Shown here in pieces: positions 3,839 to 26,763 of a DNA stretch of 36,019 bases. Within the stretch, counting starts at the first letter, position 1. Each line of letters starts with the position of its first letter. A program made the translations under genes and the position numbers. Origin of the DNA: a virus; IMG/VR virus record IMGVR_UViG_3300047312_000136, positions 1 to 36,019 of that record. One strand, given 5' to 3'. Under the pieces are notes generated by a model. The model was given only the letters and a program-made list of their open reading frames with translations, searched no databases and had not been told where the DNA came from.

Positions 3839-4155
3839 GCAGCGGGCGTATTCGCCGTAACCGCAGCGGCCACTGCCGCGTCATTAGTCGTAAGCGAGGC
3901 AGTGAGCGCGTCGAGCGCCGCCTGCGTAACCGGATCGCTCGAAGGCGGAATCGCCTTGATGAGCGCAGTCAGATTGCCGAGCAGAGCGATAACCGAGTTC
4001 GTTACGTTCGTGTTGTTTGTGACCTCTGCCGTAAGTGCGTCTAGGGTAACAGCCATGCTTCTCTCCTGTGATGAAAGTCTCTGTAGCATGCCAATCATGA
4101 CACGCTGATTGGCAACAATCTCGTTTAGCTGATCGCCCCACCACTTCCAAGGCAT
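3835..4155 (-). CDS. Small helical/coiled phage protein, 106 aa (two possible starts)
   Basis: The first ATG at 4155 lies one base after the upstream stop but has no clear ribosome site. An in-frame ATG at 4056 (residue 34) has AGGAGAG about 7 bases upstream. That would give a 73-residue protein beginning MAVTLDALTAEV. The shorter part is a regular pattern of Ala, Thr, Val and Asn (TNNTNVTNSVIALLGNLTALI, then AALDALTASLTTND). It is like short helical proteins that I recall from many alphaproteobacterial phages. The longer form adds a Trp-rich charged start. Either or both may be made. Function unknown. Confidence 0.7.
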   Translation of the reverse strand: MPWKWWGDQLNEIVANQRVMIGMLQRLSSQERSMAVTLDALTAEVTNNTNVTNSVIALLGNLTALIKAIPPSSDPVTQAALDALTASLTTNDAAVAAAVTANTPAA

Positions 4156-4156
4156 T

Positions 4157-4453
4157 TTATGCTGACTCTGCTGGCTTGATTGGTATTCGCTTGGCGATTT
4201 CCGGGGTGCTGACTACGATGATATTCAATCCGAGCACTTCGATAATATATTCTGAGCCGTTGACGCGCTTCATCGTGGCCGCATCGAATTCATTGGCAAA
4301 AACAATACTAAGGCGGTCCTTGTCCGCCTTCGTCGGCACACCGATAGTAACCAACGTTTTCTCTGCATCGATGCCGCTCTTTTCCAAAAGCCAGCGAAGA
4401 TCGGCCCCGACCTTGCATAACGTTGGTCTGCTAGTCGGGGCCAGTTGTGACAC
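4157..4453 (-). CDS. Hypothetical phage protein, 98 aa
   Basis: This uses a GTG start at 4451-4453 just after the upstream stop (TGA at 4455-4457), so it is coupled to the MCDYS gene. The product has alternating strand-like stretches (TLVTIGVPT, YIIEVLGLNIIVV) and ends KRIPIKPAESA. I do not recognise a family. The position between portal and MuF is compatible with a structural role, but nothing confirms one. Confidence 0.7.
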   Translation of the reverse strand: MSQLAPTSRPTLCKVGADLRWLLEKSGIDAEKTLVTIGVPTKADKDRLSIVFANEFDAATMKRVNGSEYIIEVLGLNIIVVSTPEIAKRIPIKPAESA

Positions 4454-8466: not shown

Positions 8467-9090
8467 CTAGTTCTTCGTCGCTATTATAAGCCAGTCCTCG
8501 ACCACCTTGCCGTTCTCTTGAACCGAGTGCTGTTCGACTTCGGCGCTAAAGCCATTGCGAGCAATTAACCCTTCGATCTGGTCCTGCTTGAGTTTCAATA
8601 CCTTACCAGCGGTTGTCAGCTTATCGTCCCGCAATGGAGATGCGCAGACGCTTAGAAACCGACCGCCGCTGCATAAGACACGCGCCGCTTGCGCCCAGGC
8701 ATAAGTCAGTTCTTCTTCGGTCAGGTTTTCCAATGAGCGAATATCGACCACGAGATGAAACGACCGGGGCGTATACGGCCACGGCTTTGTGCAATCCGCC
8801 ACGATCAGGCGCGGGAAGTTATGGATCGACTTCGCTGTGAGCCTATATAGCGCCCTAGAGATGGCCGTGGGTGAGCTATCGAAGCCGCAAGTAGAAAACC
8901 CTTGAGCGGATAGATACTCGGTATTCCTTGCCGTCCCGCAGCCGACCTCAAGACAGCTTACGGCGTGGCGCTGTTCTTCATCCCGCCCTTTTAGCCAATA
9001 TTGCGCCTCGGCGATCAGGCGAAAATCGGGAGCGCGCCCTATAAGCAAACGCGCCTTATGCGCTTCATTCCATTCAACGGCGTAGTTCAT
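8467..9090 (-). CDS. SAM-dependent methyltransferase (class I)
   Basis: A 207-residue class I methyltransferase. Motif I is LEVGCGTAR at residues 47-55. GFDSSPTAIS is the acidic end of strand 2, VADCTKPWP is motif II/III, and DIRSLENLTEEEL is motif IV. The ARVLCSGGRFLSVCAS stretch is the usual post-motif strand. It is the last gene of the nonulosonate operon and overlaps neuC by 17 bases. In such a setting it could O-methylate a sugar, or methylate another small molecule or protein; the substrate cannot be read from the sequence. The terminator at 8331-8368 follows. Confidence 0.88.
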   Translation of the reverse strand: MNYAVEWNEAHKARLLIGRAPDFRLIAEAQYWLKGRDEEQRHAVSCLEVGCGTARNTEYLSAQGFSTCGFDSSPTAISRALYRLTAKSIHNFPRLIVADCTKPWPYTPRSFHLVVDIRSLENLTEEELTYAWAQAARVLCSGGRFLSVCASPLRDDKLTTAGKVLKLKQDQIEGLIARNGFSAEVEQHSVQENGKVVEDWLIIATKN

Positions 9091-10108
9091 TTTCGACGTG
9101 TTTCACGTGTGACACTTCTCGCCTTTCGCTTAACCATCGCCATACATTCTCCTCTAGAGCCTCGACTATTCGCGGCGCGCTATTGCCATCGCCGTAGGGA
9201 TTCTCACAGGTTGATCGACCGTGATCGGCCAATTTCATTATTATTTCCGCAATGCGATCAGGCTCAAGCCCTGAGTGGTAAACGTTGTCTGGTATTGTTC
9301 GCCCCCTCTGCCTGTCTCCCACAAGCACGCATTGCAGTCCGAAACTCGGTGCCTCATAGAGCATTGCGCTTGAGTTACCGACCATGACATCGCAATGAGT
9401 CATTAGAGAATAATAGAGTTGCGGCGAAACGTTCTCGGCGAACACGCATTGATGCCTGCTACCGCTCCAATCGCGCCACACACTATTGATCGCTTCGCCT
9501 CCCGGATCAGCATTCGCGCCTAAGCACACGCACTGTATTTCAATTTTGGATAACGCAGCCACGACAGCCCGCGCTTCCATCATTGGCTCTGACTCTACGG
9601 TATTCGGATGAACGCACACGATAGCGGCCTTTTGGTCGAGCCGCCAATCCATGCGCTTAAACACGCCTTCCCTTGTCAGCACCGCCGTCTGCTTGATGCG
9701 ATCGATGGCTGGCGAGCCGGTCATGTAGACCTTGTCGCCTTTGTGACTCAGCGGTCCCTCATTATAGTCGCCGCCAGTAATGCGATTGAACGCAACAGCA
9801 TTGGTAGCGAAGTGGATACAGCTTAAAGCCGTGATCGCGTCCCTATAGCGATTGTCCGCCGAGCCTTCCGTTACGTCGCCGCCCGCTATGTGGGCGATAG
9901 GAATGCGTCGTCGCGCAAGTTCAACTACTGCCTCCAAAACCTCAAATCTATCGCCGCCGACAATGGCCGCGTCTACGTGCTTAGACGAATAGCCGAAGTC
10001 ATCTGCTTGCCATAGGTGCGAAGTATGCCACGCCTTCAATAACGCCTCATGCACGACCTCTAGGCCGTTACGATCCGCGCGAGAGCCGGTGATGACCAGG
10101 ACTTTCAT
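9074..10108 (-). CDS. neuC: NeuC/LegG-type hydrolysing UDP-sugar 2-epimerase
   Basis: This enzyme makes an N-acetylmannosamine-type sugar from a UDP-sugar with release of UDP, the entry to sialic or legionaminic acid. The family features are complete: ITGSRADRNGLE at the start, HIAGGDVTEGSADNRYRDAIT at residues 73-93, a CVHPNT strand, and VGNSSAMLYEAPSFG with LVGDRQRGR toward the end. WecB-type non-hydrolysing epimerases lack this exact AGGD-TEGS pattern. I choose the ATG at 10108 (344 aa). It overlaps the small lipoprotein stop as ATGA, although a longer frame starts at 10126. The true substrate (UDP-GlcNAc or UDP-diacetylbacillosamine) is uncertain; the neighbouring LegC-type aminotransferase favours the second. 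Confidence 0.92.
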   Translation of the reverse strand: MKVLVITGSRADRNGLEVVHEALLKAWHTSHLWQADDFGYSSKHVDAAIVGGDRFEVLEAVVELARRRIPIAHIAGGDVTEGSADNRYRDAITALSCIHFATNAVAFNRITGGDYNEGPLSHKGDKVYMTGSPAIDRIKQTAVLTREGVFKRMDWRLDQKAAIVCVHPNTVESEPMMEARAVVAALSKIEIQCVCLGANADPGGEAINSVWRDWSGSRHQCVFAENVSPQLYYSLMTHCDVMVGNSSAMLYEAPSFGLQCVLVGDRQRGRTIPDNVYHSGLEPDRIAEIIMKLADHGRSTCENPYGDGNSAPRIVEALEENVWRWLSERREVSHVKHVENELRR

Positions 10109-10266
10109 TTTCGCTCTACCATGCATCTAAATCCAAACGTGTGTACTAGCCTTGCCACGTCCGGGCGACCGTTGCAGGTGAAATCTTCCTTTCGCGACTC
10201 CTCATAGTTGCGAGCGCAGCCGCAGCAGGTCAAAAGCAGAACTGCTAGAATCATGATGACCTTCAT
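10105..10266 (-). CDS. Tiny lipoprotein-like exported protein, 53 aa
   Basis: An ATG at 10264-10266 with AGAGGGG about 8 bases upstream opens a 53-codon frame, ending in the TGA that overlaps the neuC start (ATGA). The first 17 residues are a hydrophobic signal (MKVIMILAVLLLTCCGC) rich in cysteines that could be lipid-modified, though it does not fit the lipobox exactly. The mature part is short, with two further cysteines. The size and signal resemble phage o-spanins or entry-exclusion lipoproteins, but there is no partner here. It is interesting because it sits inside a sugar operon and sets the translation of neuC. Confidence 0.68.
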   Translation of the reverse strand: MKVIMILAVLLLTCCGCARNYEESRKEDFTCNGRPDVARLVHTFGFRCMVERK

Positions 10267-10281: not shown

Positions 10282-11436
10282 TTACGGTGTCGATGGCAGG
10301 CAGATGCAGCGCCGCCAGATGTCCTCCGCTGTTTGTAGACTACCTTGACGGGGGGCAAATTTGAAATGCGACAGCTTATGCAGTGGCGTGAAGATCGCTC
10401 GCGCTTCGAACCCGTCATCCAATAGCGCCTGGATCACCGCGTCCCGCTCGTTCATTACGCGAGGATCGAGCAGTATGGCATTGAGCCAGTGATTGCTTCC
10501 TGGCACGTCAATCATGCTGACGTTTTTGTTATCGTCAAAGGACACCGCATAGCGCGCCGCCAACGTCAGCTTGGCGCTCAATGTCTGAGCAAGCCTGCCA
10601 AGCTGTTCAACGCCCAACGCAGCGCCCATAGACGACATGCGATAATTCCAGCCGACCTCATCGTGCTGCCACAAGAACGGATGCTCGACTTTAGCTTGTC
10701 TCGCTAAATGACTGACGCGCTCCGATATTTGCTGATTGTTTGTCAGCACCGCTCCACCGCAGTCAGTCGTAACGATCTTATTAAGGTTGAAGCTCAATGC
10801 GCCAGCCATGCCGATTGTGCCGCAATGCTGCGTCAGAGCAAATGATCCCAAAGCCTCTGCGGCGTCCTCGATAACCACAATGCCGTAATACTCCGCAATG
10901 CTGTGTATGTCGTAAATCTCGCAGGGATTGCCGAGTAGATGAACGGCGACTATGGCCGCGACCCGCCGCCCGGTCGCAATGTTCTGCAATGTGCCGTCCT
11001 GATGTCGATGGAAGAAGCCCCTATCCCCAAGATACTGTCGCAATTTGAAACGGGCGACCCCTAGCGTTTGAACGTTGTTATCCACAAAATGCGGGACGGC
11101 CCCGGCGTATACGATGGCGTTGGCCGTGGCAGCGAAGGTCAGGGATGGGCATAGAACCTCATCCCCCTTCCCCACACCCGCCGCTATCAAAGCGAGATGC
11201 AGAGCCGCCGTACCGCTACTGACGGGTATTACAAAATCAGCCCCGGTAATCCGCTTCAGGCTCGCTTCGAACTCCCATACATAGCCCTCCCCCAGATTTA
11301 TCCTGCTCAAATGAATAGCGTGCTTGGGCCGCTGAAGCTCACGCGACCCGTCGCCTATTACCGCCCGGACGACGCCAACAATCTCATCCGCTATCATTGG
11401 ACGTTTTCTTCCGATCAGTCTCTGCCATAAAAGCAT
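10282..11436 (-). CDS. legC: LegC-type DegT/DnrJ/EryC1/StrS aminotransferase
   Basis: A PLP-dependent sugar aminotransferase, expected to convert a UDP-4-keto-6-deoxy-HexNAc to the 4-amino sugar. The SSGTAALHLAL helix (residues 73-82), the EDAAEALGS motif (D191 contacts the PLP ring nitrogen) and LSFNLNKIVTTDCGG (K220 forms the Schiff base) are all present. The segment TLGVARFKLRQYL and the later GRRVAAIVAVHLLGN match the LegC/bacillosamine subfamily better than WecE or PseC. Two starts are possible: 11436 (GAGG upstream) or 11397 (MIADEIV, GGAAGA upstream, better aligned to relatives). The frame overlaps the preceding gene by 53 or 14 bases. The catalytic set looks intact. Confidence 0.88.
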   Translation of the reverse strand: MLLWQRLIGRKRPMIADEIVGVVRAVIGDGSRELQRPKHAIHLSRINLGEGYVWEFEASLKRITGADFVIPVSSGTAALHLALIAAGVGKGDEVLCPSLTFAATANAIVYAGAVPHFVDNNVQTLGVARFKLRQYLGDRGFFHRHQDGTLQNIATGRRVAAIVAVHLLGNPCEIYDIHSIAEYYGIVVIEDAAEALGSFALTQHCGTIGMAGALSFNLNKIVTTDCGGAVLTNNQQISERVSHLARQAKVEHPFLWQHDEVGWNYRMSSMGAALGVEQLGRLAQTLSAKLTLAARYAVSFDDNKNVSMIDVPGSNHWLNAILLDPRVMNERDAVIQALLDDGFEARAIFTPLHKLSHFKFAPRQGSLQTAEDIWRRCICLPSTP

Positions 11437-11656
11437 TTAGTGTCGCCTCGACCCGCGATCTAATGATGTCCATATCTATAGCCTGCCGCTGTCGGTGCAG
11501 ATTTATCATCGAGACTACGGCCTGAAGATTATTGCGAACCTGATGTTGCAACTCCGCGAGCAGAATTTCTTTTTCGTTTGCGCATTCCGCTAACAATTTT
11601 CTCAATCGTTTAACCTCGCCCCTTAGATGATTTTGTTGATGCCCGTTCGTTTCCAT
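11384..11656 (-). CDS. Stand-alone histidine-kinase phosphoacceptor (DHp, HisKA_2/HWE-like) domain
   Basis: A 90-residue protein consisting mainly of a charged helix (EVKRLRKLLAECANEKEILL) running into the box LAELQHQVRNNLQAVVSMI. This is the HisKA_2/HWE phosphoacceptor signature; the usual form is LxExxHRVKNNLQ, and H38 is the phosphorylatable residue. It ends soon after, with no ATP-binding (N, G1, G2 box) domain and no sensor. The ATG at 11656 has GAGAGG four bases upstream, so it is a real gene rather than debris. It overlaps neuA by 47 bases and legC by up to 53. It could be a phosphotransfer or dimerising decoy acting on host two-component signalling. Confidence 0.75.
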   Translation of the reverse strand: METNGHQQNHLRGEVKRLRKLLAECANEKEILLAELQHQVRNNLQAVVSMINLHRQRQAIDMDIIRSRVEATLNAFMAETDRKKTSNDSG

Positions 11657-12296
11657 AAAGCCTCTCCCAAGCTACTTGTGCCATTTCCAAGTCCATGCCG
11701 TTGTCGATGTCGATGCTCCGCTCCTTCGGCATGACGTAGGAGTAAGCATAAGGGCCGTACCAATGACCGCCGCCACGCAACACCGATGTCTTGATAACGT
11801 AGACGGCACCATTGGGGCGCACGATGTCGGGTATGTGTTCGAGTCGTCCCGCGTGCCGACGATGGAATGCAATGTCGTCCTCACCTTCGGTAACACTCAC
11901 CACGGAGTCCACACCGGCAGTAAGCATGTCGATGCACTGCGCTACGTCTATCGCTGTGCGTAACGGCGATGTCGGTTGCAGCAGACAAATTGCATCAGCA
12001 TCACAGCCGAGCTTTATTAACTCATCGTCCGCGTGTTTCATCACCTGCACCATCACATCGTAGGTTTGTTCGAACTGCGGTTGTTTGATTAAAATAATTG
12101 GTTCAACAGACATCATCGCCGCCCCGACAAATATGCGTTCGTCGTCACTACTTATAGCGATTGGATTGCATAGACCACTATTACGCGCGTGATTTACCGC
12201 ATGAATCCACAACGAAACGCCGCCAACCTCACTCCAATTCTTTTCCGGCAGGCGCTTGCTGTTCTTTCGTGCCGGTATCAGTCCGACGACTTTCAT
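11610..12296 (-). CDS. neuA: CMP-nonulosonate (sialic/legionaminic) cytidylyltransferase
   Basis: This activates the nonulosonic acid with CTP, giving the CMP-sugar donor. The N-terminal nucleotide loop IPARKNSKRLPEKN (residues 7-20), LLQPTSPLR (105-113), RPNGAVYV (160-167) and SIDIDNGMDLEMA (194-206, the metal-binding Asp pair) match NeuA/LegF/PseF. At 228 residues it is a single-domain form without the C-terminal esterase of some NeuA proteins. I choose the ATG at 12296, which overlaps the upstream stop as ATGA; a longer frame starts at 12308. The nucleotide is probably CTP, because the operon has NeuB. Substrate choice between Neu5Ac and legionaminic acid is not readable. Confidence 0.92.
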   Translation of the reverse strand: MKVVGLIPARKNSKRLPEKNWSEVGGVSLWIHAVNHARNSGLCNPIAISSDDERIFVGAAMMSVEPIILIKQPQFEQTYDVMVQVMKHADDELIKLGCDADAICLLQPTSPLRTAIDVAQCIDMLTAGVDSVVSVTEGEDDIAFHRRHAGRLEHIPDIVRPNGAVYVIKTSVLRGGGHWYGPYAYSYVMPKERSIDIDNGMDLEMAQVAWERLYGNERASTKSSKGRG

Positions 12297-13330
12297 GCGG
12301 ATCGCCATACAGCAACAGCAACCTTCACTATATCGCTAGGCGTCATGCTTTCATGAATTGGCAACAGCAAATGTTTGTCCCAAAAGTCCCTTGCTGGCGA
12401 ACCGCTAGGAGGACTTATCCAGCGGTCAGACACAATCTCCGCAGCCACACCTAATTTAGCCATCTGATCTGCTGCGCGCAGACGGTGCCCGCATCGAACA
12501 GGCAACGCAAAAATCGGAACGTCATTCCTGAACAAATAGCGCGACCGCAGCCGTTTAATTATCTTGCTGGCATTTTCCCGCCGTATCTTAACGATGCCGT
12601 GAAAATCAAGGTCGTTACGAAACGCTCGCGCAAGCGCGGACATGGCACGCGGCTGCATATCAGATGAAATGGATCTGTAGTAATCCTCATAGTGGTTTAG
12701 GCTTTGAGCGTGCGCCTCCGGATACAGCGACGAAGAAGTCAGAGCAATAAAGCGATTTGCCACCATGTGCTGAAAATAAGCGTTTACGGCAACATCGTCG
12801 CTCGGCCGCAAATCCTTCGGCATGCTCACGTCCGCATTAGGCGAGCGAGAGAACAGCATCGCCCCATCAGACACCGGCAATATCTTATTCATCGAATACA
12901 GCGCGATGTCGGCGCAGTCGTTCTTCGGGTCGGGATTGACCAAGCAGTGCGCGCAATCTTCGAGCAGCAAGCCGCCCGCTTCGTGCGCCATGATCGCCGC
13001 GTCACACGTTGGCATCGCATAGCCGAAGTAATGCACCACCACGACAAGCGGCCGTTTTGTCGATGGACGCCCGGCAAATCCATGAACGCGACCAATCGCA
13101 CGCCCTAGACTGCCAAGGTGAGGCGACAGGTCCGCTCTCAGATCGTAGAAGTCAACGCGAATGCCTGCTTTCTCAAACGGCATTATCAGTCCTTCCGGCA
13201 CCATGTGCGGCATCACCACGCGGTCGGGACCGTAACGCTCGATAAGATGCACCAAGCAACTGCGCCCGGTAGCAAACGTACAGGTTGTCAGCGGCAAGAG
13301 CATCGTATCGTAGCGCAAGACGGTCAGCAT
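12293..13330 (-). CDS. Second PLP fold-type I aminotransferase-like protein (divergent DegT)
   Basis: A 345-residue protein with the PLP fold-type I landmarks of sugar aminotransferases: VVHYFGYAMP, LLLEDCAHCL with D125 in place to contact PLP, and YSMNKILPVSDGAML with K149 as candidate Schiff-base lysine. The N-terminal glycine-serine phosphate loop is shortened (FATGRSCLVHLI), and the C-terminal half is unlike LegC. I recall similar SLRKxLPVPDG proteins in surface-polysaccharide clusters. It follows neuB with a one-base TGATG overlap and precedes neuA with ATGA. It could act on a different keto-sugar, for example to put a second amino group on the nonulosonate precursor, but the reaction is not known. 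Confidence 0.75.
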   Translation of the reverse strand: MLTVLRYDTMLLPLTTCTFATGRSCLVHLIERYGPDRVVMPHMVPEGLIMPFEKAGIRVDFYDLRADLSPHLGSLGRAIGRVHGFAGRPSTKRPLVVVVHYFGYAMPTCDAAIMAHEAGGLLLEDCAHCLVNPDPKNDCADIALYSMNKILPVSDGAMLFSRSPNADVSMPKDLRPSDDVAVNAYFQHMVANRFIALTSSSLYPEAHAQSLNHYEDYYRSISSDMQPRAMSALARAFRNDLDFHGIVKIRRENASKIIKRLRSRYLFRNDVPIFALPVRCGHRLRAADQMAKLGVAAEIVSDRWISPPSGSPARDFWDKHLLLPIHESMTPSDIVKVAVAVWRSA

Positions 13331-14151
13331 CAGGATGCAGTGAGGTGTTTATATTGATGTTTGACGAAGCGGTCATACTCGGCGCGGTTCTCGACCTCGC
13401 ACGGCATCAACGTTTTGATGCCAGAGCCAAGCGATTTAGAGGCGGCGCGCAGCGTGTCTACATAGGACGCCATCAGGCTAGGCGTGCATGACGCGGCATG
13501 ATCCCGACCGGCTTGATGAGTGTCGAGCGTTATATGCTTCTCGAAGATGCGTGCTCCCAATCCAATCGCAATCAACGCCGCTTGACTAGTGCGTGTGTGA
13601 TCTGAAAACCCGACCGTTATCTGACCAAACCGCCTGAAAATTTGGCGAATAACCAGCAGATTGAGTTGATCGTGCGGCGCAGGGTAAGCCGACACGCAAT
13701 GCAATATCGTAGTCTTGGCCGGTTGCAGCGCATGGATAGCCGCCGCCATCTCGCCCCACTCGCACGCGCCGGTCGAGAGAAGCACCGGCTTGCCGCGCTT
13801 GGCAAGCTGATAGAGTAACGGCTTGTTTGTAATATTTGATGAACCGATCTTGATACGCTCGACGCCCATTTCAATCAACGCATTGAGGTCTTGCCAGTCA
13901 TCCGGCGTGCAGAGAAACCGTAGCTGCATGCCCTCCGCCAATCCCTTTAGTCGAGACAAGTCATCGGCGGACAATTCCAGCTTCTTCATTTCCTCCCACC
14001 GCTCGCGCGGATAGACACGCTCGCTATTCCATAGCTGAAACTTGACCGTATCGCAGCCAGCGTCCTTCGCCGCCTTCATCAGCATCAACGCGGTGCCGAT
14101 GTCGCCGTTATGATTGACGCCAATCTCGGCTATGATTTCGATGTCGTTCAA
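13330..14151 (-). CDS. neuB: NeuB-type nonulosonic acid synthase lacking the SAF domain
   Basis: This condenses PEP with a mannosamine-type sugar to give the nine-carbon acid. The TIM-barrel motifs are complete: IAEIGVNHNGD (7-17), DTVKFQLW (34-41), STGACEW, ILHCVSAYPAP (149-159), VGFSDHT (180-186) and FEKHITLD with GRDHAAS (203-221). At 273 residues it stops at the MPCEVENR linker, just where the C-terminal SAF/antifreeze-like domain of normal NeuB, LegI or PseI (about 340-350 residues) would start. That domain normally covers the active site of the partner subunit. The start is TTG at 14149-14151 with AAAGGA seven bases upstream, and it overlaps the preceding TGA. No SAF-like frame is visible downstream. 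Confidence 0.92.
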   Translation of the reverse strand: MNDIEIIAEIGVNHNGDIGTALMLMKAAKDAGCDTVKFQLWNSERVYPRERWEEMKKLELSADDLSRLKGLAEGMQLRFLCTPDDWQDLNALIEMGVERIKIGSSNITNKPLLYQLAKRGKPVLLSTGACEWGEMAAAIHALQPAKTTILHCVSAYPAPHDQLNLLVIRQIFRRFGQITVGFSDHTRTSQAALIAIGLGARIFEKHITLDTHQAGRDHAASCTPSLMASYVDTLRAASKSLGSGIKTLMPCEVENRAEYDRFVKHQYKHLTAS

Positions 14152-14348: not shown

Positions 14349-14740
14349 CACTTCCTCCTGTCCGGTGCCGTATCATTCTCGCCAATGCCAATCGCCCCCG
14401 GCAACTGCGGCTCCGGCGTAATCACCCCACGTTCCAGATTAGCCCCGGCAAGCAGCGGTCCAGCCGTTTTAGATGCGCGCTCGATGTCGTCCACAACGGC
14501 AAGAATCTGATCGCTGGTACACGTCCACGGTTCGCCATCCTTCCACCACCCGGTCGTGCGATGCATGAAGCGCATGTAGAAAGTCGTCGCAAGGTACTGA
14601 TCCATTGTTTCAGTCAGCAGCGCCTTGCACAGCTTAATTGACTTCGGCGGCTTGCCCCATTCAAACGTGCCAAGCTCCCTCACGCCTGGATTGACGGCGA
14701 ATACGCGCCCATCGTTGCCACCGACAAAACGTATTTTCAA
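14348..14740 (-). CDS. Hypothetical protein, 130 aa
   Basis: The start is TTG at 14738-14740, preceded by a perfect AGGAGG seven bases away and overlapping the upstream stop as TTGA. The first 30 residues look beta-stranded (KIRFVGGNDGRVFAVNPGVRELGTFEWG). The middle is helical with TGWWKDGEPW, and the last 30 residues are proline/glycine-rich and probably disordered. No family is recognised. Position within the sugar operon does not define a function; it may be a virion gene carried in this transcript. Confidence 0.72.
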   Translation of the reverse strand: MKIRFVGGNDGRVFAVNPGVRELGTFEWGKPPKSIKLCKALLTETMDQYLATTFYMRFMHRTTGWWKDGEPWTCTSDQILAVVDDIERASKTAGPLLAGANLERGVITPEPQLPGAIGIGENDTAPDRRK

Positions 14741-15780
14741 ACGAACGGCCTCCTATAAGCGGGAAAGAACTCAGCGGTAGACTCTCGACCGTGCTGCTCT
14801 TGTTCTTCCATCGCCTTGCGATTGCATAGCGACTCATAAGCCGTGGCGTCGAAGATGCGCCCGTATCGCCTTGCTACCAAGAGAACGTCAGAGAATCCAG
14901 ACTTGAAGAACAACAGCGAATTTGTCTGCGCACCCTCGACGTGCGGGCCGTCACCACCAAGATGAAAACGCTTGAAGCCCATATCGCGCAATTCGCACGC
15001 CACTTTGAAATACATAAAATCATCTAACCCGTCGCCTCGGCTCTCATCGTCACTACCAAGAAAATGAGCATAGGCCGTTTCACCTAAACCTATTGTTAGC
15101 AACGCACGATGCCAGCCGCCATCTGTCCAGACTTCCCAGAAGCGAGCACCAACCCCTTCTTTCTGATAGGCGTCCCAATATTCAAGCGAGTGCTTCCAGT
15201 AGGCGCTCGCCTCTAACCGCTCCATCGCTTTGTCATAAAGCACTTCAAGCGACTTCGGCGTGCCCGCATGCAGGGTCGCTCGCGCTTCCTTCGCCGCCTT
15301 AATTCCGCGCCGCACGCGACGGCGCAAATGTTCGATGTCGAAATTAGTCAGATCGACAACAACAACTTCCTTGGCTTCTAGATAGGTATTAACAGCGTGA
15401 TTTAATAACTTGCCCTGCAAATCATCAAACAACGGATGCATGCAACAGAACTCCGACACGATATATTCACGTCGCGCCCAGGCCCATAGATTGTCTTGAA
15501 ACGGTGCCGCCAATTCAGGGCTGGCCCCTATCGGCCCGCCGTACCCGTAGAGACTTGTTAGCTCGAAATGATCTGCGCCGACCGGCATCATGAACATCGG
15601 CTGCATCACGAAGTCCGACCCTCGCGTGAACACTACGAGGATCGCATGACCCGGCCAGCGCGATTCATGGATGCGCGCATAGGCGGACGTGAAATGCACG
15701 TCCTGAAGCTCTATCGGAAGTCTATCGAAAAAACCGTCCCATTCGGCGCGATCATCCGTAGCAGAGAGAATTATGAGCAT
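14737..15780 (-). CDS. FemAB-like GNAT-fold acyltransferase
   Basis: A 347-residue protein of the FemAB/BioF2-like double-GNAT type. The hallmarks are SLYGYGGPIG near residue 80, a strand-helix stretch with VDLTNFDIEHLRRRVRRGIKAA-type basic helix around 140-165, a YWDAYQKEG segment, then FHLGGDGPHVEGAQTNSLLFFKSGFS. The last of these is the second-domain acyl-donor loop region of this superfamily. In surface-glycan clusters such proteins N-acylate amino sugars. Here it could replace the missing LegH acetyltransferase or modify the finished nonulosonate. It begins three bases after the preceding stop. Confidence 0.8.
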   Translation of the reverse strand: MLIILSATDDRAEWDGFFDRLPIELQDVHFTSAYARIHESRWPGHAILVVFTRGSDFVMQPMFMMPVGADHFELTSLYGYGGPIGASPELAAPFQDNLWAWARREYIVSEFCCMHPLFDDLQGKLLNHAVNTYLEAKEVVVVDLTNFDIEHLRRRVRRGIKAAKEARATLHAGTPKSLEVLYDKAMERLEASAYWKHSLEYWDAYQKEGVGARFWEVWTDGGWHRALLTIGLGETAYAHFLGSDDESRGDGLDDFMYFKVACELRDMGFKRFHLGGDGPHVEGAQTNSLLFFKSGFSDVLLVARRYGRIFDATAYESLCNRKAMEEQEQHGRESTAEFFPAYRRPFV

Positions 15781-18297: not shown

Positions 18298-19221
18298 ATG
18301 TTACAAGTTACCCGAAAGACAGACGCCGAGACGATACTTTCATCGAAGGCGATCATCGCGGCACCGACTATTAGCCATTGGACGGCCCGCAAGTTCGACC
18401 GCAAGATGACCAAAGACCTCCACGAGCAGAAGAAGATGTCTGCCGATGCAGGGCGATACAGGAAGTATCTAGTCGGTGAGAACGACCTAAACGAGATTGC
18501 CCAGATTGTCGGGCGGGCGCGGTCCTATCACCTGTCGGCAACGCTCGCGTGGCTGGATCAAGAGGGCCGCCGCTTGTTGCCATCGCAAAAGTACGTCGAA
18601 TACTGCGAGCAAATGAACACGCTCAAGCAGGAACACGAAGCGGCGGTCAACAGATTCGTTCCACGCTACCCGGCAATGATCGAGCAAGCTAAGGCGCGCC
18701 TCGTTGATGCATTCGATCCAGCCGACTATCCGAACCCGCAGTCGATCAGATCGAAGTTCAAATTCGACCTGAAGTTTTACCCGGTCGAGACATCGGACTT
18801 TCGTTGCCAAATCTCATCTGACGACATCGAGACACTACGCGACCAAATGAAGGACGGCATGCGCGATGCGTTGGAGCAGACGCAACGCGAGGCCATGCAG
18901 CGGGCGGTCAAGGCGATGGAGCACATGGTCGAGCGGCTCCGCGCCTTCAGGCCCGCAGAAAAGAAGAAAGGCATGAAGGGGGGCCAGAAGGTCGAAGGCA
19001 AATTCCACGACACGCTCGTGGAGAACGTTCGCGACCTGATCCCGGTCCTCCGGTCGTTCAACTTCGCCAACGACAAGGCTTTCGATCAAATCTGTGACGA
19101 CATGCAGAAAGACCTTTGCCGTTACGACGCCGACGAATTGCGGGACGACCAAGACACCCGTAAGCAAGTAGCCGATTCCGCCGAGAAGATATTGGCGGAC
19201 GTTTCACAGTTCATGGCCTGA
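18298..19221 (+). CDS. DUF3150 protein, partner of MoxR/VWA
   Basis: A 307-residue helical protein. The region with SADAGRYRKYLVG, RARSYHLSATLAWLDQEGRRLLPSQKYVEY, FDPADYPNPQSIRSKFKFDLKFYPV (seen in segments around residues 48-160) and SDFRCQIS follows the DUF3150 pattern that I recall next to phage and bacterial MoxR-like ATPases. A basic Lys/Gly loop (KKKGMKGGQK) splits the C-terminal helices. The ATG at 18298 follows GGAG. It probably forms a complex with, or is a substrate adapter for, the AAA+ ATPase and VWA protein that follow in the same operon. Confidence 0.78.
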   Translation: MLQVTRKTDAETILSSKAIIAAPTISHWTARKFDRKMTKDLHEQKKMSADAGRYRKYLVGENDLNEIAQIVGRARSYHLSATLAWLDQEGRRLLPSQKYVEYCEQMNTLKQEHEAAVNRFVPRYPAMIEQAKARLVDAFDPADYPNPQSIRSKFKFDLKFYPVETSDFRCQISSDDIETLRDQMKDGMRDALEQTQREAMQRAVKAMEHMVERLRAFRPAEKKKGMKGGQKVEGKFHDTLVENVRDLIPVLRSFNFANDKAFDQICDDMQKDLCRYDADELRDDQDTRKQVADSAEKILADVSQFMA

Positions 19222-19230
19222 TCGCAGCTT

Positions 19231-19271
19231 GGGTGCCTCGTTCGCGGGGCACCCTATCGGCAATCCTGCCG
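19231..19271 (+). repeat. Double-hairpin leader, copy 2
   Basis: GGGTGCC pairs with GGCACCC (19231-19254), followed by CGGC-N6-GCCG (19258-19271). The flanks match copy 1 at 17389-17432: GAT-C/T-GCAG before, a TTCGC loop, CGGCAATC, then GCCGA and GGGG before the next start at 19289. The first stems differ in sequence yet still pair, a sign that the structure is kept. Confidence 0.65.
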
Positions 19272-19288
19272 AACTAGGGGACTACAAA

Positions 19289-20350
19289 ATGTCACAAGAC
19301 ATCAACCTTGAAATCGAGAATCCAGTTACCTCGCGGGAACTGGTTGACCTAATTCAACTACATTGGAACGCTAAGCCGAAGCCGCAGCCCGTCATGATTT
19401 GGGGCGATAGCGGCATCGGCAAGTCGGACCTCGCACACCAACTCGCGGCGGCGACCAAGCGCAGGCCCGTCATGTTCATGCTCAACGTTCGCGAGCCTGT
19501 GGACATGCGCGGCGTCCCGATGGTCGATCCGAAGACCAAGACGACGCTGTGGTGCGCGCCGTCCGAACTGCCCAAGGCAGACGGCAGCGACGGCGACACG
19601 CTTCTGATCCTCGACGAAATCAATACCGGCGGACTTCAGATGCTGGCAGTGGCGATGCAGCTTGTTCTCGCGGGCGAGATTGGCGATTACAGACTGCCAA
19701 GCAACTGCCGCATCCTCGCGATGGGCAATCGAACGAAAGACAGCCGAGCGGTTGTCCAGATGCCGAAGCCACTCCGCAACCGCTTCGCGCATTACACCAT
19801 GATAATCGACCACGACAGTTTGGTCGCGCATCTAAAGACGGTCGGTTGCCGCGACGAAATCGTAGCGTTCATCCGCTTCCGACCAGAGTGCGTTACCCGC
19901 CAGCCGAAGGGCGATGCAAACGCCTACGGCTCGCCTCGCTCCGTTCACCGTTGCGAGTCCTATGTAGACGCCAAGCCGCATCTGCGGTTGAAAGCGTTTA
20001 CCGCACTCATCGGCAAGGATGACGGCACCGAGTTGGAAGCCTTCGTCGCCATGTATCAGAGCCTGACTTGCATCGCGGACGTACTACAGAACCCGACCAC
20101 TGCAAGGCTTCCTTCGCAGCGTTCGGAAATGTACGCGGTCGCAACGGCGCTCGGCAGACTGGCAGACAAGAAAAACTTTGCAAACATCATCACGTATGCA
20201 AAGCGCCTCGGCCAGCTTCATCGGGATATGGAAGTCGTCACCGTTACCGACGCAACCGACCGCGACGGCAAGCTCTGTGAGTGCGCCGCCTATACGCAAT
20301 GGGCGCTCGCCAATCAGGACGTGACGTTGCGGCATTTCGAAATCGCTTAA
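19289..20350 (+). CDS. MoxR-like AAA+ ATPase
   Basis: A 353-residue AAA+ ATPase. Walker A is GDSGIGKS (39-46), Walker B LLILDE (105-110), sensor 1 Asn is in ILAMGNRTKD, and the arginine-finger region is PLRNRF. The insert with REPVDMRGVP is typical of MoxR-family members that sit next to VWA proteins. The C-terminal part (SPRSVHRCESYVD and helices after) is the lid. The longer frame starts at 19229, but I choose the ATG at 19289, which lies after the leader and close to AGGGGAC. MoxR ATPases remodel or load partner VWA proteins; the target here is unknown. Confidence 0.9.
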   Translation: MSQDINLEIENPVTSRELVDLIQLHWNAKPKPQPVMIWGDSGIGKSDLAHQLAAATKRRPVMFMLNVREPVDMRGVPMVDPKTKTTLWCAPSELPKADGSDGDTLLILDEINTGGLQMLAVAMQLVLAGEIGDYRLPSNCRILAMGNRTKDSRAVVQMPKPLRNRFAHYTMIIDHDSLVAHLKTVGCRDEIVAFIRFRPECVTRQPKGDANAYGSPRSVHRCESYVDAKPHLRLKAFTALIGKDDGTELEAFVAMYQSLTCIADVLQNPTTARLPSQRSEMYAVATALGRLADKKNFANIITYAKRLGQLHRDMEVVTVTDATDRDGKLCECAAYTQWALANQDVTLRHFEIA

Positions 20351-20375
20351 CTTAACTCAAACAATGGAGACATCG

Positions 20376-21734
20376 ATGAAGATGATGACCCGGCAGGAAA
20401 TGGAGCGGGCGGCAGCGGCGATTGTCCGCAAGGCCCGCTTCGAAATCCTCGCCAAGCATAAGTTCTACGCGGTGCTGCTGTCGCAGACGACAGACGTTGC
20501 CCGGTGGGATATTCCCACGATGGCAACCGATAGCGTCACCCATTTCTACAATCCGCAGTTTGTTCTCGATCAGAGTTTTAGAAAAATCGTAGGGACAAAC
20601 ATTCACGAAGCAGAACATGATGCTCGCCATCATTCGACACGGCGCAAGGGTCGCGACCCATTGCTGTGGAACTACTCATGTGACTACTCGATCAACCCCG
20701 ACATCATTGATGAGGGCTACGAACTGCCGGATGGCATTCTTCTTCGCGATGACCTGCGCGGTCTAGGCGCTGAGGAAATTCACCGCATTCTTCGCAGCGA
20801 ACAAGACCAGAAGCGGCAAGAGGAGCAGAAGGATGAAGGCCAGGAAGACAAGGACGGTGACGAGCAACAAGAAGGCAGTTCGCAAGGCGATGAGCAAGGC
20901 GACCAGTCCGAAGGCCAAGGCCAGAGCGAAGAAGGAACAGGCTCTGATGCAGAAGCTGATGCGGGAACTGGCGATGGCGCTACCGAGGCCGAGGGCGCAG
21001 GCGCTGGCGGTGATATTCCCTCATCGTGTGGAGCCGGTAGGTGCGGCGAAGTTCTCGACGCGCCTGGAGATGAGGCGGAGCAGGCGGACCTCGACGCGCG
21101 TTGGGAAGTGACAACGCGCCAAGCGGTCAGCATGGCGAAGAAGGCCGGGACGCTTCCCGGTCATTGGGCGGCGGAAATCGAACGCCGCCACACGCCGACG
21201 CAAAACTGGAAAGAGGTTTTGCGCGAATACATCGACTCGTTTGCTGATCGAGTGCAAACGTGGAACCGAGTAAACCGCCGCTTTGTATCTTCGGGAATCA
21301 CGCTCCCAAGCTATCAGCGCGACGGCGTGAACAAGGTTTGCTTCATCATCGACGCTTCCGGCTCGATGGGCGGTCAGCACGTCAAGATCGCAAACGAGCT
21401 ACAGGCGGCGCTCGATGATGGGTCGATCACCGATGCGGTCTTTATTTACTGTGACACAGAGGTCTATCACACCGACCGTTTCACAGGCGGCGACCGCATA
21501 ACACTGGCACCGATCCGCTTGGGCGGCACCGACATGAAGCCAGCCTTTGCACAGATCGAACAGGACGATGGCGATGCTTCGCTTATCATCTGCTTGACCG
21601 ATCTTTACATCGGCGACCCAGGACCGGAGCCGCAGCAACAAGTGCTGTGGATGGCCTACGGCGATCCGCGATCAATTGAGCATGAAGGCTCCCTGCTTCC
21701 TTGGGGCCGAGTGCTGGACGTGGACACCGAATAG
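20376..21734 (+). CDS. DUF2201-type metallopeptidase-like protein with VWA domain
   Basis: A 452-residue two-domain protein. The N-terminal domain has a zinc-type HEAEH motif (77-81) within IVGTNIHEAEHDARHH, then LWNYSCDYSINPDI and GYELPDGILLRDDLRGLGAEEIHRIL-like segments, as in the DUF2201 putative metallopeptidase. Residues 143-215 are an Asp/Glu/Gln/Gly-rich linker. The C-terminal VWA-like domain carries the MIDAS motif DASGS (326-330), GGTD (383-386) and LTDLY. I choose the ATG at 20376 (GGAG six bases upstream). With the MoxR ATPase just upstream it forms the classical MoxR-VWA pair. The target of the predicted protease or chelatase-like activity is unknown. Confidence 0.88.
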   Translation: MKMMTRQEMERAAAAIVRKARFEILAKHKFYAVLLSQTTDVARWDIPTMATDSVTHFYNPQFVLDQSFRKIVGTNIHEAEHDARHHSTRRKGRDPLLWNYSCDYSINPDIIDEGYELPDGILLRDDLRGLGAEEIHRILRSEQDQKRQEEQKDEGQEDKDGDEQQEGSSQGDEQGDQSEGQGQSEEGTGSDAEADAGTGDGATEAEGAGAGGDIPSSCGAGRCGEVLDAPGDEAEQADLDARWEVTTRQAVSMAKKAGTLPGHWAAEIERRHTPTQNWKEVLREYIDSFADRVQTWNRVNRRFVSSGITLPSYQRDGVNKVCFIIDASGSMGGQHVKIANELQAALDDGSITDAVFIYCDTEVYHTDRFTGGDRITLAPIRLGGTDMKPAFAQIEQDDGDASLIICLTDLYIGDPGPEPQQQVLWMAYGDPRSIEHEGSLLPWGRVLDVDTE

Positions 21735-23554: not shown

Positions 23555-24073
23555 TCACTCAGGCACCCAGCCGTTTGCAAAGGCCGCAGCAGAACCGCGC
23601 TCGATCATTCCGCCCGTATCCTGAAGGCGGTCCACTTCTTCGTCTTCCATCCCTAGCCGCCGCATAATCTCCTCCGCTGGAATTTTCATTTCATGCGCCA
23701 GCGTGCGCACAATATCCGCCATCTTTAAGACGCCATGATTTCCGCGCGCCCGATTATGCCGGATGGTAGACATCATCTGGTGCGCCGCATCGCCGGGTCG
23801 CAATCGGACTACCGGGACCAGCCCCTTAGTTAAAGCCTTTACGTCCTTGTCGGCCGAAGCGAGCACCCATCTATGAAAGCCATCTACGAGCTCACCGTCC
23901 TGGCGGGCGACTAGCGGCTGAGTCCAGCCGTCCTCTAGCAGCGACACCTTGAGCAATTCTAGTTCGGGCGGCGCAACGTGATTAGGATTATAGTTGTTGG
24001 CGCGGAGCGTGTCGGGCTTGACCCACTCGACCGCGCTGATCGGTTGCTTCTTTAGGCCCGGAATATCCACCAT
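23555..24073 (-). CDS. ParB/Srx-fold protein, IbrB-like
   Basis: A 172-residue single-domain ParB-like protein. The markers are ANNYNPNHV (26-33), LVDGFHRW (62-69, the pocket equivalent to GxxR/DGxHR) and STIRHNRARGNH (102-113), then a helical end with MKIPAEEIMRRLGM. These match the IbrB-type partner of PAPS-reductase-like IbrA, and the IbrA gene lies 49 bases upstream. ParB/Srx domains bind CTP or ATP and some act as nucleases or kinases; no activity can be assigned here. In E. coli, IbrAB was described as activating eib gene expression, mechanism unknown. The start at 24073 has no strong ribosome site. Confidence 0.8.
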   Translation of the reverse strand: MVDIPGLKKQPISAVEWVKPDTLRANNYNPNHVAPPELELLKVSLLEDGWTQPLVARQDGELVDGFHRWVLASADKDVKALTKGLVPVVRLRPGDAAHQMMSTIRHNRARGNHGVLKMADIVRTLAHEMKIPAEEIMRRLGMEDEEVDRLQDTGGMIERGSAAAFANGWVPE

Positions 24074-24122
24074 AGCTGCACCATTATAACCGCGAGGAGA
24101 ATCAAGACCGGCCAGGGTTCTC

Positions 24123-25373
24123 TCACGTAGCGAGTTCTTTACGGTAATGCTCCCACGCTTTTTTCATCTCTGCCTCTTGCCGGAATGGCCGAACTGGTTG
24201 CTTACGGCCTTTATAGTCGCCGCGCATTGCAATCATCAACAGGAACCGCCAGGAAACACCCGTATCCGGATGCGGCACCGTTGGCGCTATAGGGTCCGAG
24301 GTCTTACCGTAGTGATTACGAACCCAGTTCTGCACCCGGCTGGCAATCTGCGAGCGGTACGGCTGTGGATGCTTAGCGATCCAGTACCGGACCCAATTAG
24401 GCCACGTAAAATTACCCGGCTTGGATGGTAGAGCGCTGAAAGCATAAAGTTCAGTCGTAGAGTAGCGCGCCGCCGTTGCGCTACCGGGAACCCGGTTACT
24501 CATCTTGTCCCAGATGTCGGGAAAACACACCGAATACATCCACAGGTTTTGCATCGGTTCCTCGCCGTAAGGTGGCGCGCAACGCTGCGCGTTGCGGGAG
24601 ACACCGGCCATTTCCATCGCATCATAGGCGCGGTTGTAATCGAGCTTGAACTGCTTGGGGTAGGTCCAGACGTCAGCCGTTGACCAGTCGTAGATCGGAT
24701 AGACCTTCCAGAGATTATCCGCCCAAGGCCGCACATAGGGTCGGGTGTCCCGATGCCGATGGAGGACAGCGCGAGTCCGCGCGAGGCTCTCATTGGCCCG
24801 TATACCCATAACCATCCCTACCCGGCCGTAGTCCAAGGCATCGAATATAAGAGGTACGCTTTCGGGCATCGTAGGGCGGGCCGCGGTAGCCCTTGGGAAC
24901 CCCGGCACGGCCCCTGCCGTAATAGCCTCCGGGGGTAGGGGCCTAACCCATTTGGCCTCTACCTCCGGCCCCCAGGGATACCAGAAGGGTTCCCGCCTGG
25001 AACAGCCGTTTCGATGCTGAATGGGTAGGCAATACCAGCGTACTTCTACCCCCGGTAGCACAGTGCAGCGGCGCACGTAATGCTCTGTATCGTAGGGAAT
25101 AGCCTCCTCGTCATAGAAAAACGCTATAACCCGCTGCCCCCGCGCGCGGGCTACCTCAAGGGTCAGGTGTAGACAAACCGTCGAATCCTTGCCCCCGCTA
25201 AATGAGACTGCGAGCGTATCGAATAGCTTGTAGCAATCGTTTAGCCGTTCAAGCGCTAGGTCGAGCACGCTACGGTCAACAAGCTTTTTCTTGGCGTAGA
25301 CTCCTGTCGATAGCGACTTGCTCGACTTACTATCTTGGACCAGATCATCGCCGCTGTAGCCTTCGTCGCTCAC
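24123..25373 (-). CDS. PAPS-reductase-family protein, IbrA-like (DUF3440)
   Basis: A 416-residue protein with a PP-loop SGGKDST (59-65), the ATP pyrophosphatase motif shared with PAPS reductases and DndC. Beyond it come a WYCLPIQHRN segment, EPFWYPWGPE, VMGIRANESLARTR, YPIYDWSTADVWTYPK, LDYNRAYDAMEMAGV and QRCAPPYGEEPMQNLWMY, all in the IbrA order. It lacks the C-terminal thiol motif of assimilatory reductases. The start is GTG at 25371-25373 with AGGA upstream, overlapping the cupin stop as GTGA. Family members have an unknown reaction, probably adenylation or sulfur chemistry on a nucleic acid or protein. It sits between a cupin and an IbrB-like gene. Confidence 0.85.
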   Translation of the reverse strand: MSDEGYSGDDLVQDSKSSKSLSTGVYAKKKLVDRSVLDLALERLNDCYKLFDTLAVSFSGGKDSTVCLHLTLEVARARGQRVIAFFYDEEAIPYDTEHYVRRCTVLPGVEVRWYCLPIQHRNGCSRREPFWYPWGPEVEAKWVRPLPPEAITAGAVPGFPRATAARPTMPESVPLIFDALDYGRVGMVMGIRANESLARTRAVLHRHRDTRPYVRPWADNLWKVYPIYDWSTADVWTYPKQFKLDYNRAYDAMEMAGVSRNAQRCAPPYGEEPMQNLWMYSVCFPDIWDKMSNRVPGSATAARYSTTELYAFSALPSKPGNFTWPNWVRYWIAKHPQPYRSQIASRVQNWVRNHYGKTSDPIAPTVPHPDTGVSWRFLLMIAMRGDYKGRKQPVRPFRQEAEMKKAWEHYRKELAT

Positions 25374-26095
25374 GTTATTTCCTGCGTCCTGATACGGTCT
25401 ATGTTCTTGGCCGAGACGCCGCCAACGAGAGTGCGGTTTAGCATCGGGTGTTCTTCATGCGTCGGGCCGAAGTCGGAATCCGGATGAAAGACGGTAAGCT
25501 GCATCGCACTATCGGTTGTCTCGAAAGCGTGCACGGCGTCCGGGGCCAGGATGAACATACTACCCGCGTCTAGGCTCTCGGTGCCGTCCTCTGTATGGCA
25601 CAGGCCATGACCAGTGTGGATCATGCCGATACGCACGCTAGGGTGCGTATGTTTGGTCTGTGAAATACCGACCGGAAAGTGCAGGAAATTAAAGCATGGC
25701 TCGCCGCGTAGCGGCGGCGAGATTAACAGCGTGTCCGAACAGCCGTCGATATATTTCAGCCGCCCTTTGTCTTCCAGAAACCGGCCGACAATATTAAGGC
25801 CGAAGTAGTCATTGCGAAATGCAATAAAGCCCTTGCTCCCCTCCGAGGCAAGGATCTTGGAGCGATTGTTCTGTGGGATTGAAAAGTAGGAGTGATCGAA
25901 CAACACCCGATCAAAGCGACCGTCAACCATCACCCACGTTTGTCCTTCATGCAGATAACCGAACAGCGTACCCTTGCCATGTATCTCCAAGGATTCCATG
26001 TCACTGTTTATGCCGTAGGCGCGGCACGGAAATTCCGCATCATCGAACGCGGCCATTAGGCCATGCCGCACTGGCTCGATAGTGGCTGGCTTCAT
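25370..26095 (-). CDS. Cupin-domain protein (two-part)
   Basis: A 241-residue protein. Residues 40-100 look like a degenerate first cupin barrel (GTLFGYLHEGQTWVMVDG, SYFSIPQNN). Residues 130-205 form the better one, with GISQTKHTHPSVRIGMIHTGHG giving H149 and H151, GSMFILAPDAVHAF giving H189. The usual metal-ligand Glu of motif 1 is replaced by Arg155 or its neighbours. The tail HPDSDFGPTHEEHPMLNRT is characteristic, and I recall it from phage cupins near PAPS-reductase-like genes. It could be a metal oxygenase or a ligand-sensing protein. It overlaps both neighbours by four bases, so it is part of the IbrA cassette. Confidence 0.82.
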   Translation of the reverse strand: MKPATIEPVRHGLMAAFDDAEFPCRAYGINSDMESLEIHGKGTLFGYLHEGQTWVMVDGRFDRVLFDHSYFSIPQNNRSKILASEGSKGFIAFRNDYFGLNIVGRFLEDKGRLKYIDGCSDTLLISPPLRGEPCFNFLHFPVGISQTKHTHPSVRIGMIHTGHGLCHTEDGTESLDAGSMFILAPDAVHAFETTDSAMQLTVFHPDSDFGPTHEEHPMLNRTLVGGVSAKNIDRIRTQEIT

Positions 26096-26763
26096 GTTTT
26101 CCTCTTTGTATTTTTTGCCATTCCGATTAGCGCCTCCGCAGTCGTGCGCAGCTTTAGCTTGTCACGCTCCCCGGATAGCCATGTAACTACGATGTCTCGA
26201 TCCTCCGGCATCATATCAAAGCGAAGCTGTACCCCGCGCGTCCCCGGCATGACCGCGCTACTCTGCGTCACGCTTTCAGGCTCGATCATGTCGCCCATGA
26301 AACTGCTAAGCTTGAAGCCCTCTAGCTCCTGATCGCCGAACCCTAGAAGCGGCAGATCAAAGCCAGCTATCTCAAGGTCGCGCAATTCTGCGGTAAGCTT
26401 TGGAATGTCCCACTCAGCTAATCGACCCAGTTGGTTGTCCGCCACGCGGTAGGCGCTCTTTTCCTCCACCGTCCAGCCTACCGCTACTGCTACCGGGAAG
26501 GATGCAAGACCGAGACGTTGCGCCGCTAAGAGGCGGCCATGCCCATAGATCAACACTCCATCCTCATCGACTAGCACCGGCGCAGTCACGCCGAACCGTC
26601 GCATACTTTCTGCTAGTTGCTTGACCTGTGCATCAGTATGGCGCAGCGGGTTGCGCTCGTAGGGCTTAATCTTCTCTATAGGCCAGCGCTCGATCTTATC
26701 GACCGGCCAATCCCTAAGCGGCCCCGAATCCTTGGTCTTGATCTTGGTCGCACTCTTCGCCAT
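26092..26763 (-). CDS. ParB-domain protein of the DNA-methylase-associated type
   Basis: A 223-residue protein. Residues 30-115 are a ParB N-terminal domain: IKPYERNPLRHTDAQVKQLAES-like start, VLVDEDGVLIYGHGRLLAA (GHGR, 74-77) and SAYRVADNQLGRLAEWD. This exact subtype is usually fused to or beside an N4/N6 DNA methylase in phages. Here the domain is followed only by a short FDLPLLGFGDQELEGF stretch and a basic C-terminus, with no methylase motifs. The methylase-like protein at 28804-29379 lies in the same operon. The gene overlaps the SH3-like small gene by 50 bases. The second ParB-like protein in the cassette is the IbrB-like one. Confidence 0.82.
   Translation of the reverse strand: MAKSATKIKTKDSGPLRDWPVDKIERWPIEKIKPYERNPLRHTDAQVKQLAESMRRFGVTAPVLVDEDGVLIYGHGRLLAAQRLGLASFPVAVAVGWTVEEKSAYRVADNQLGRLAEWDIPKLTAELRDLEIAGFDLPLLGFGDQELEGFKLSSFMGDMIEPESVTQSSAVMPGTRGVQLRFDMMPEDRDIVVTWLSGERDKLKLRTTAEALIGMAKNTKRKT

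Follow-up and report, generated by a model that had tools for sequence, protein, structure and literature searches.

A 90-residue HisKA_2-type H-box gene within a nonulosonic-acid operon of an uncultivated tailed phage

Described systems and the phage locus

The closest described counterparts of the gene reported here are the HisKA_2 and HWE_HK kinases, which share with the orphan protein of this phage a linker and an H-box helix (LLxELxHxV[RK]NNLQ), the phosphoacceptor histidine and an asparagine at H+4. Unlike these kinases, the phage protein has no demonstrable second helix of the dimer of hairpins (DHp), lacks the ATPase and the sensor, and has HQxxN in place of HRxxN, which is given as the family motif (PMC5898713). 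The second, antiparallel DHp helix carries a conserved arginine known as the R-box (PMC12148442). PhyK and PhyT, whose H-box type matches that of the phage protein, act as phosphotransferases in Caulobacter and Sphingomonas (PMC5964349, PMC5898713) and provide an analogy for the handling of phosphate in the absence of a kinase activity of its own, although they differ from the 90-residue orphan in being full-length, with an ATPase domain that is degenerate in PhyT. The DHp alone of EnvZ or NtrB has been stated to suffice for a constitutive phosphatase phenotype in vivo (PMC3510030); like the orphan, these isolated domains are small, have no catalytic domain and hold the phosphoacceptor helix, but they are laboratory constructs of the HisKA type with both helices present. 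A further likeness is offered by PIT4 of Pseudomonas phage LSL4, a small phage protein that binds several host histidine kinases (PMC10714779), binding to kinase domains having been shown for it, whereas for the orphan such an action is proposed.

The window analyzed, 36,019 bases long, is the whole of one IMG/VR record and may fall short of the full genome. It comes from an uncultivated tailed phage that carries Mu-type portal, head-morphogenesis and terminase genes. On its minus strand an operon encodes, in order, an unknown protein of 192 aa, a FemAB/GNAT-like protein near the operon head (14737..15780), an unknown protein of 130 aa, a small ORF, a NeuB-like nonulosonate synthase (13330..14151; Pfam and NCBIfam matches), a 345-aa protein whose profile matches are weakly to DegT/PseC aminotransferases (12293..13330), a NeuA/PseF-like cytidylyltransferase (11610..12308), the orphan H-box protein (11384..11656, stop codon included), a LegC-like DegT aminotransferase (10282..11436), a NeuC-like UDP-GlcNAc 2-epimerase (9074..10126; profile matches) and a methyltransferase (8467..9090), which closes the sugar operon ahead of the terminase and portal genes. 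The NeuB-, NeuA-, LegC- and NeuC-like gene content therefore marks this as a nonulosonic-acid operon of the sialic or legionaminic type, and the sugar-operon setting that a sequence-only reading had assigned to the orphan gene is borne out by the sugar-nucleotide genes that surround it. The FemAB/GNAT-like protein has a relative in an alphaproteobacterial NeuA-NeuC-NeuB operon, and comparable LegC-NeuA-NeuB-NeuC sets occur in genomes of the bacterial class that we sampled.

Several other features of the record were observed. The phage NeuB (273 aa) consists of the NeuB barrel alone (PF03102 positions 1-241; TIGR03569 positions 3-274 of 329), without the C-terminal region that such proteins normally have, and the 345-aa protein, whose plasmid relatives are haloarchaeal (24-29% identity), is possibly a diverged or decayed aminotransferase. 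Positions 18298-21734 on the plus strand encode consecutively a DUF3150 protein, an AAA_5 ATPase and a DUF2201 metallopeptidase/VWA-like protein, the best PHROG of the last being named HNH endonuclease, at odds with Pfam. Positions 23555-26763 on the minus strand encode a PAPS-reductase/DUF3440 protein and a protein with a cupin/AraC-binding domain, between two ParB_N-like proteins.

The orphan gene is real and unusual. Its 90 codons stand where the sequence-only reading had placed them, on the minus strand, which that reading had omitted, and their translation is METNGHQQNHLRGEVKRLRKLLAECANEKEILLAELQHQVRNNLQAVVSMINLHRQRQAIDMDIIRSRVEATLNAFMAETDRKKTSNDSG. The ribosome site claimed for it is also present: GGGAGAGG, as read from the sequence, precedes the ATG by 4 bases (11661..11668, minus strand) and falls within the 3' end of the upstream NeuA/PseF-like gene, whose last 47 bases are shared with the orphan gene. 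At the other end the overlap with the LegC-like gene is 53 bases, which falls to 14 should LegC start at the in-frame ATG at 11397. Because of these overlaps on both sides there is no space for an ATPase or sensor domain, and Pfam found neither in the 90-aa protein, so that its claimed orphan status stands. Of the six frames across the span only the orphan frame is free of stops, and its codon score of 0.05 exceeds those of the other five (-0.17 to -0.47), the well-framed phage genes scoring 0.09-0.26; the codon table excluded four operon entries, with no effect on the six-frame ranking.

A codon score below that of the longer genes of the phage is what would be expected of a passenger remnant, that is, a piece of a host kinase left between neuA and legC by the recombination that built the operon, perhaps still made as a peptide and functionless. 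We consider this a serious possibility, though less likely than not, since the frame is intact, the ribosome site is good and the overlaps on both sides are those of a translationally coupled operon. Nor is the gene a simply frameshifted kinase, a candidate that we rejected because a second DHp helix is absent from the other minus-strand frames over the tail and the start of the next gene follows immediately, leaving no space for an ATPase.

The H-box helix and the tail

Taking the ORF list, the profiles and the structure models together, the orphan protein can be divided into a linker-like helix (residues ~9-34), a HisKA_2-type H-box helix (31-57) and a helical tail of uncertain kinship (58-90). 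It contains the box LAELQHQVRNNLQ, which by sequence comparison is a genuine HisKA_2-type H-box, and the would-be phosphoacceptor, His38 (codon at 11543..11545, minus strand), is invariant in the kinase alignment. The Pfam HisKA_2 profile (PF07568) matched the protein with E=3e-4 and 21.2 bits over profile positions 1-24 of 76 only, so that the DHp match sought by profile search was obtained, but marginally, under the gathering score of 22.3. The match to HWE_HK (PF07536) had E=0.024, and the top NCBIfam match was to PhyK (E=4e-5). A custom HisKA_2 profile, built from the DHp segments of full-length kinases including three spurious sequences, gave the protein 38.3 bits, whereas the highest of 200,000 shuffles reached 18.0; once the three spurious sequences were removed, the protein scored 36.6 bits. 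The score of 38.3 bits is somewhat flattered because some of the profile kinases were picked for their resemblance to the query; the identity of the H-box holds nonetheless, since it is borne out by Pfam and NCBIfam, both of them independent.

When the protein is aligned with seven full-length kinases encoded on viral contigs, residues L32, E35, H38, V40, N42, N43, L44 and R68 are invariant, and the context L-x-E-x-x-H-x-V-[RK]-N-N-L is present around His38. The family motif is broken at one position: the protein reads HQVRN, keeping the histidine and the asparagine at H+4 and replacing the arginine at H+1 by glutamine. Among 76 sampled kinases this position is R in 74 and Q in 1, the remaining one being unreadable, so that glutamine there is rare yet known in an otherwise ordinary kinase. 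The similarity reaches upstream into the linker helix, with 38% across residues 11-73 to a Rhizobium plasmid kinase and 44% across residues 5-59 to a kinase from our sample of 385 genomes of one class, and this extension means that the dimerization spine of the kinases has been retained.

The tail behaves differently from the H-box helix. Alignment to the custom profile stops at residue 71; 25,383 of 50,000 shuffles of residues 58-90 score at least as high as the real protein, which means that the tail contributes nothing; and when the tail was compared pairwise with 32 kinases, p was ~0.09. The phosphoacceptor that had been claimed from the sequence is thus confirmed as an H-box, but not as a whole DHp domain. 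AlphaFold2 predicted one continuous helix both for the protein alone (residues 3-88; pLDDT 94.6, pTM 0.58) and together with seven relatives (residues 2-89; pLDDT 92.3, pTM 0.51). The antiparallel helical pair is hence absent from both models, a result that is weak either way: it weakens a hairpin without disposing of it, because the runs, on one and eight sequences, were monomeric, used little or no alignment and included no control DHp. Our comparisons therefore support only the first helix (residues ~31-57) and the linker helix preceding it, not an entire DHp.

These results bear directly on the proposal of a minimal DHp which, in the manner of the isolated EnvZ DHp or of an HPt, would exchange phosphate with the response regulators of the host or remove it from them. 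R68-V69 follows H38 at a distance of 30 residues (29 in the Rhizobium plasmid kinase), where HisKA_2 kinases have the conserved arginine of the second helix, H38 and N42 are kept, and there are precedents in the isolated DHp domains (PMC3510030) and in PhyT and PhyK (PMC5898713, PMC5964349). Although R68 aligns with that arginine, the tail around it does no better than shuffles and the second helix is not significant by sequence; neither AlphaFold model has a hairpin, and HQxxN stands instead of HRxxN. Phosphotransfer requires both helices of a DHp, of which the sequence supports only the first, and we regard this reading as very unlikely.

A single continuous helix predicted with high confidence is also compatible with a sugar-operon protein that is no more than a coiled coil or a scaffold, perhaps holding the biosynthetic enzymes together, and whose H-box histidine no longer matters. 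The protein gave weak matches to coiled-coil proteins in the PDB, a Foldseek search of the PDB with the lone helix having found nothing, and the tight coupling to neuA and legC and the loss of arginine at H+1 would also fit. However, conservation peaks precisely at the phosphoacceptor site (L32, E35, H38, V40, N42, N43, L44), beyond what a coiled coil needs, and no such protein was found in the other NeuA and NeuB operons searched, which makes this explanation unlikely in our view.

The PhyK match raised the question of kinship with the stress-response kinases. The best match in the 385 class genomes lies 1.1 kb from nepR, and a nepR-linked kinase is the best match in 23 of the 43 nepR-positive genomes. 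In a leave-one-out comparison of two profiles, one built from 26 nepR-linked kinases and one from 44 other HisKA_2 kinases, the orphan protein scored 38.7 bits with the former and 41.3 with the latter, a difference of -2.6, outside the range of the nepR-linked kinases (+26, sd 8; -12, sd 7, for the others). A per-residue identity test leaned slightly toward the nepR-linked group (p 0.003), but the two most similar sequences are not nepR-linked. Kinship with PhyK/PhyT was consequently rejected; the nepR-linked kinases are probably simply near the HisKA_2 consensus, hence the apparent affinity.

Distribution and host

No functional-looking stand-alone counterpart of the protein was found in any of the collections searched. 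Single-sequence searches of phages, viral contigs and genome contigs found no close relatives, and PHROGs gave weak matches only. A degenerate H-box pattern applied to 2.9 million viral contigs yielded 24 stretches, with 7 relatives, all within full-length kinases. Every match listed in 398 genomes of one phylum, and likewise in 385 genomes of one class, is part of an open frame 249 aa or longer, as against the 90 aa of the orphan. The exact DNA pattern for HQVRNNLQ occurs in 22 places in 84,980 genomes, none titled as alphaproteobacterial. As a side observation, full-length HisKA_2 kinases are carried by contigs classed as viral, one of 607,744 bases, and some of these contigs may be host DNA.

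The surroundings of related sugar and packaging genes gave the same picture. Viral contigs frequently encode NeuB (a relative is present in at least 528 of the 599 candidate stretches listed), and the 80 viral NeuB loci examined, out of at least 528, contained no DHp-like ORF; a NeuA-like ORF was nearby in about 10 of these 80 and a LegC-like one in 7. Such an ORF was also absent from 20 NeuA neighbourhoods in bacterial genomes and from the 80 phages with the most similar terminases, in which the operon too is missing near the terminase. On these three samples we rejected a conserved accessory of sugar operons. The nearest viral contig has a LegC that is 100% identical and begins inside this gene, so that the position of the orphan gene lies beyond its end. 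As far as the searchable collections reach, the gene appears to be private to one phage.

That the gene is known from a single phage, and is missing from the viral NeuB, terminase-related and bacterial NeuA samples, is an argument for the passenger remnant, together with the tail that is not demonstrably DHp-like and the arginine lost at H+1. An H-box stub does exist elsewhere: a Mesorhizobium plasmid record annotates a 57-aa H-box ORF (4007-4180) just downstream of a sensor kinase gene, and its C-terminus suggests a decayed kinase.

The class sampled is, we infer, Alphaproteobacteria, as NepR occurred only in Caulobacter among 14 controls and was present in 40 of 58 matched genomes. Two genomes of this class contain relatives of the phage portal protein (45% and 38% identity), one of them being the sole match in the phylum-wide sample as well, and the best plasmid relative of the phage NeuA is from Sinorhizobium; a tRNA search of the phage gave no host clue. 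The kinase, portal and NeuA relatives are thus suggestive of an alphaproteobacterial host.

Proposed pairing with host kinases

Taking all these results, the reading that we prefer, with a probability of about 0.4, is that the gene represents the captured linker and H-box helix of a HisKA_2 kinase and that any action it may have is through pairing with kinases of the host. Under such a mechanism a cargo gene would encode the two helices cut loose from the sensor and ATPase of the kinase, and the small helical protein would dimerize through the parallel helical spine that joins kinase subunits. It would then pair with HisKA_2/HWE kinases of the host, or mask the face on which their response regulators dock, and as a dominant-negative decoy it would lower the output of these kinases while the sugar genes of the phage remodel the cell surface. 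Pairing is the most economical active role because the part retained is the spine that pairs subunits and the catalytic part is absent. In favour of it are an H-box far above chance, the similarity that reaches into the linker helix, an intact ORF that is preceded by a ribosome site and leads the six frames in codon score, the helix predicted with high confidence, the conservation of H38 and N42, and the precedents of the isolated EnvZ and NtrB DHp domains, of PhyT and PhyK and of PIT4; against it are the absence of a stand-alone homologue from the collections searched, the unsupported second helix, the lack of a predicted hairpin and the change of arginine to glutamine at H+1. That the protein might accept phosphate from host kinases, dimerize with them or block them, as the sequence-only reading proposed, is no more than a possibility, and both the passenger remnant and the plain coiled coil are serious rivals. 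The fuller scenario, in which a free-standing HisKA_2 phosphoacceptor of the phage dimerizes and exchanges phosphate with regulators or dephosphorylates them, shutting a stress or surface programme of the host alongside sugar remodelling, seems to us highly improbable.

Should the gene prove functional, it would show a phage in nature turning the phosphoacceptor spine of a kinase alone, without catalytic and sensor parts, against host signalling, and it would tie the control of signalling to phage-borne synthesis of surface sugars. If it is not, it would indicate that H-box stubs of kinase genes can travel in the cargo operons of phages.
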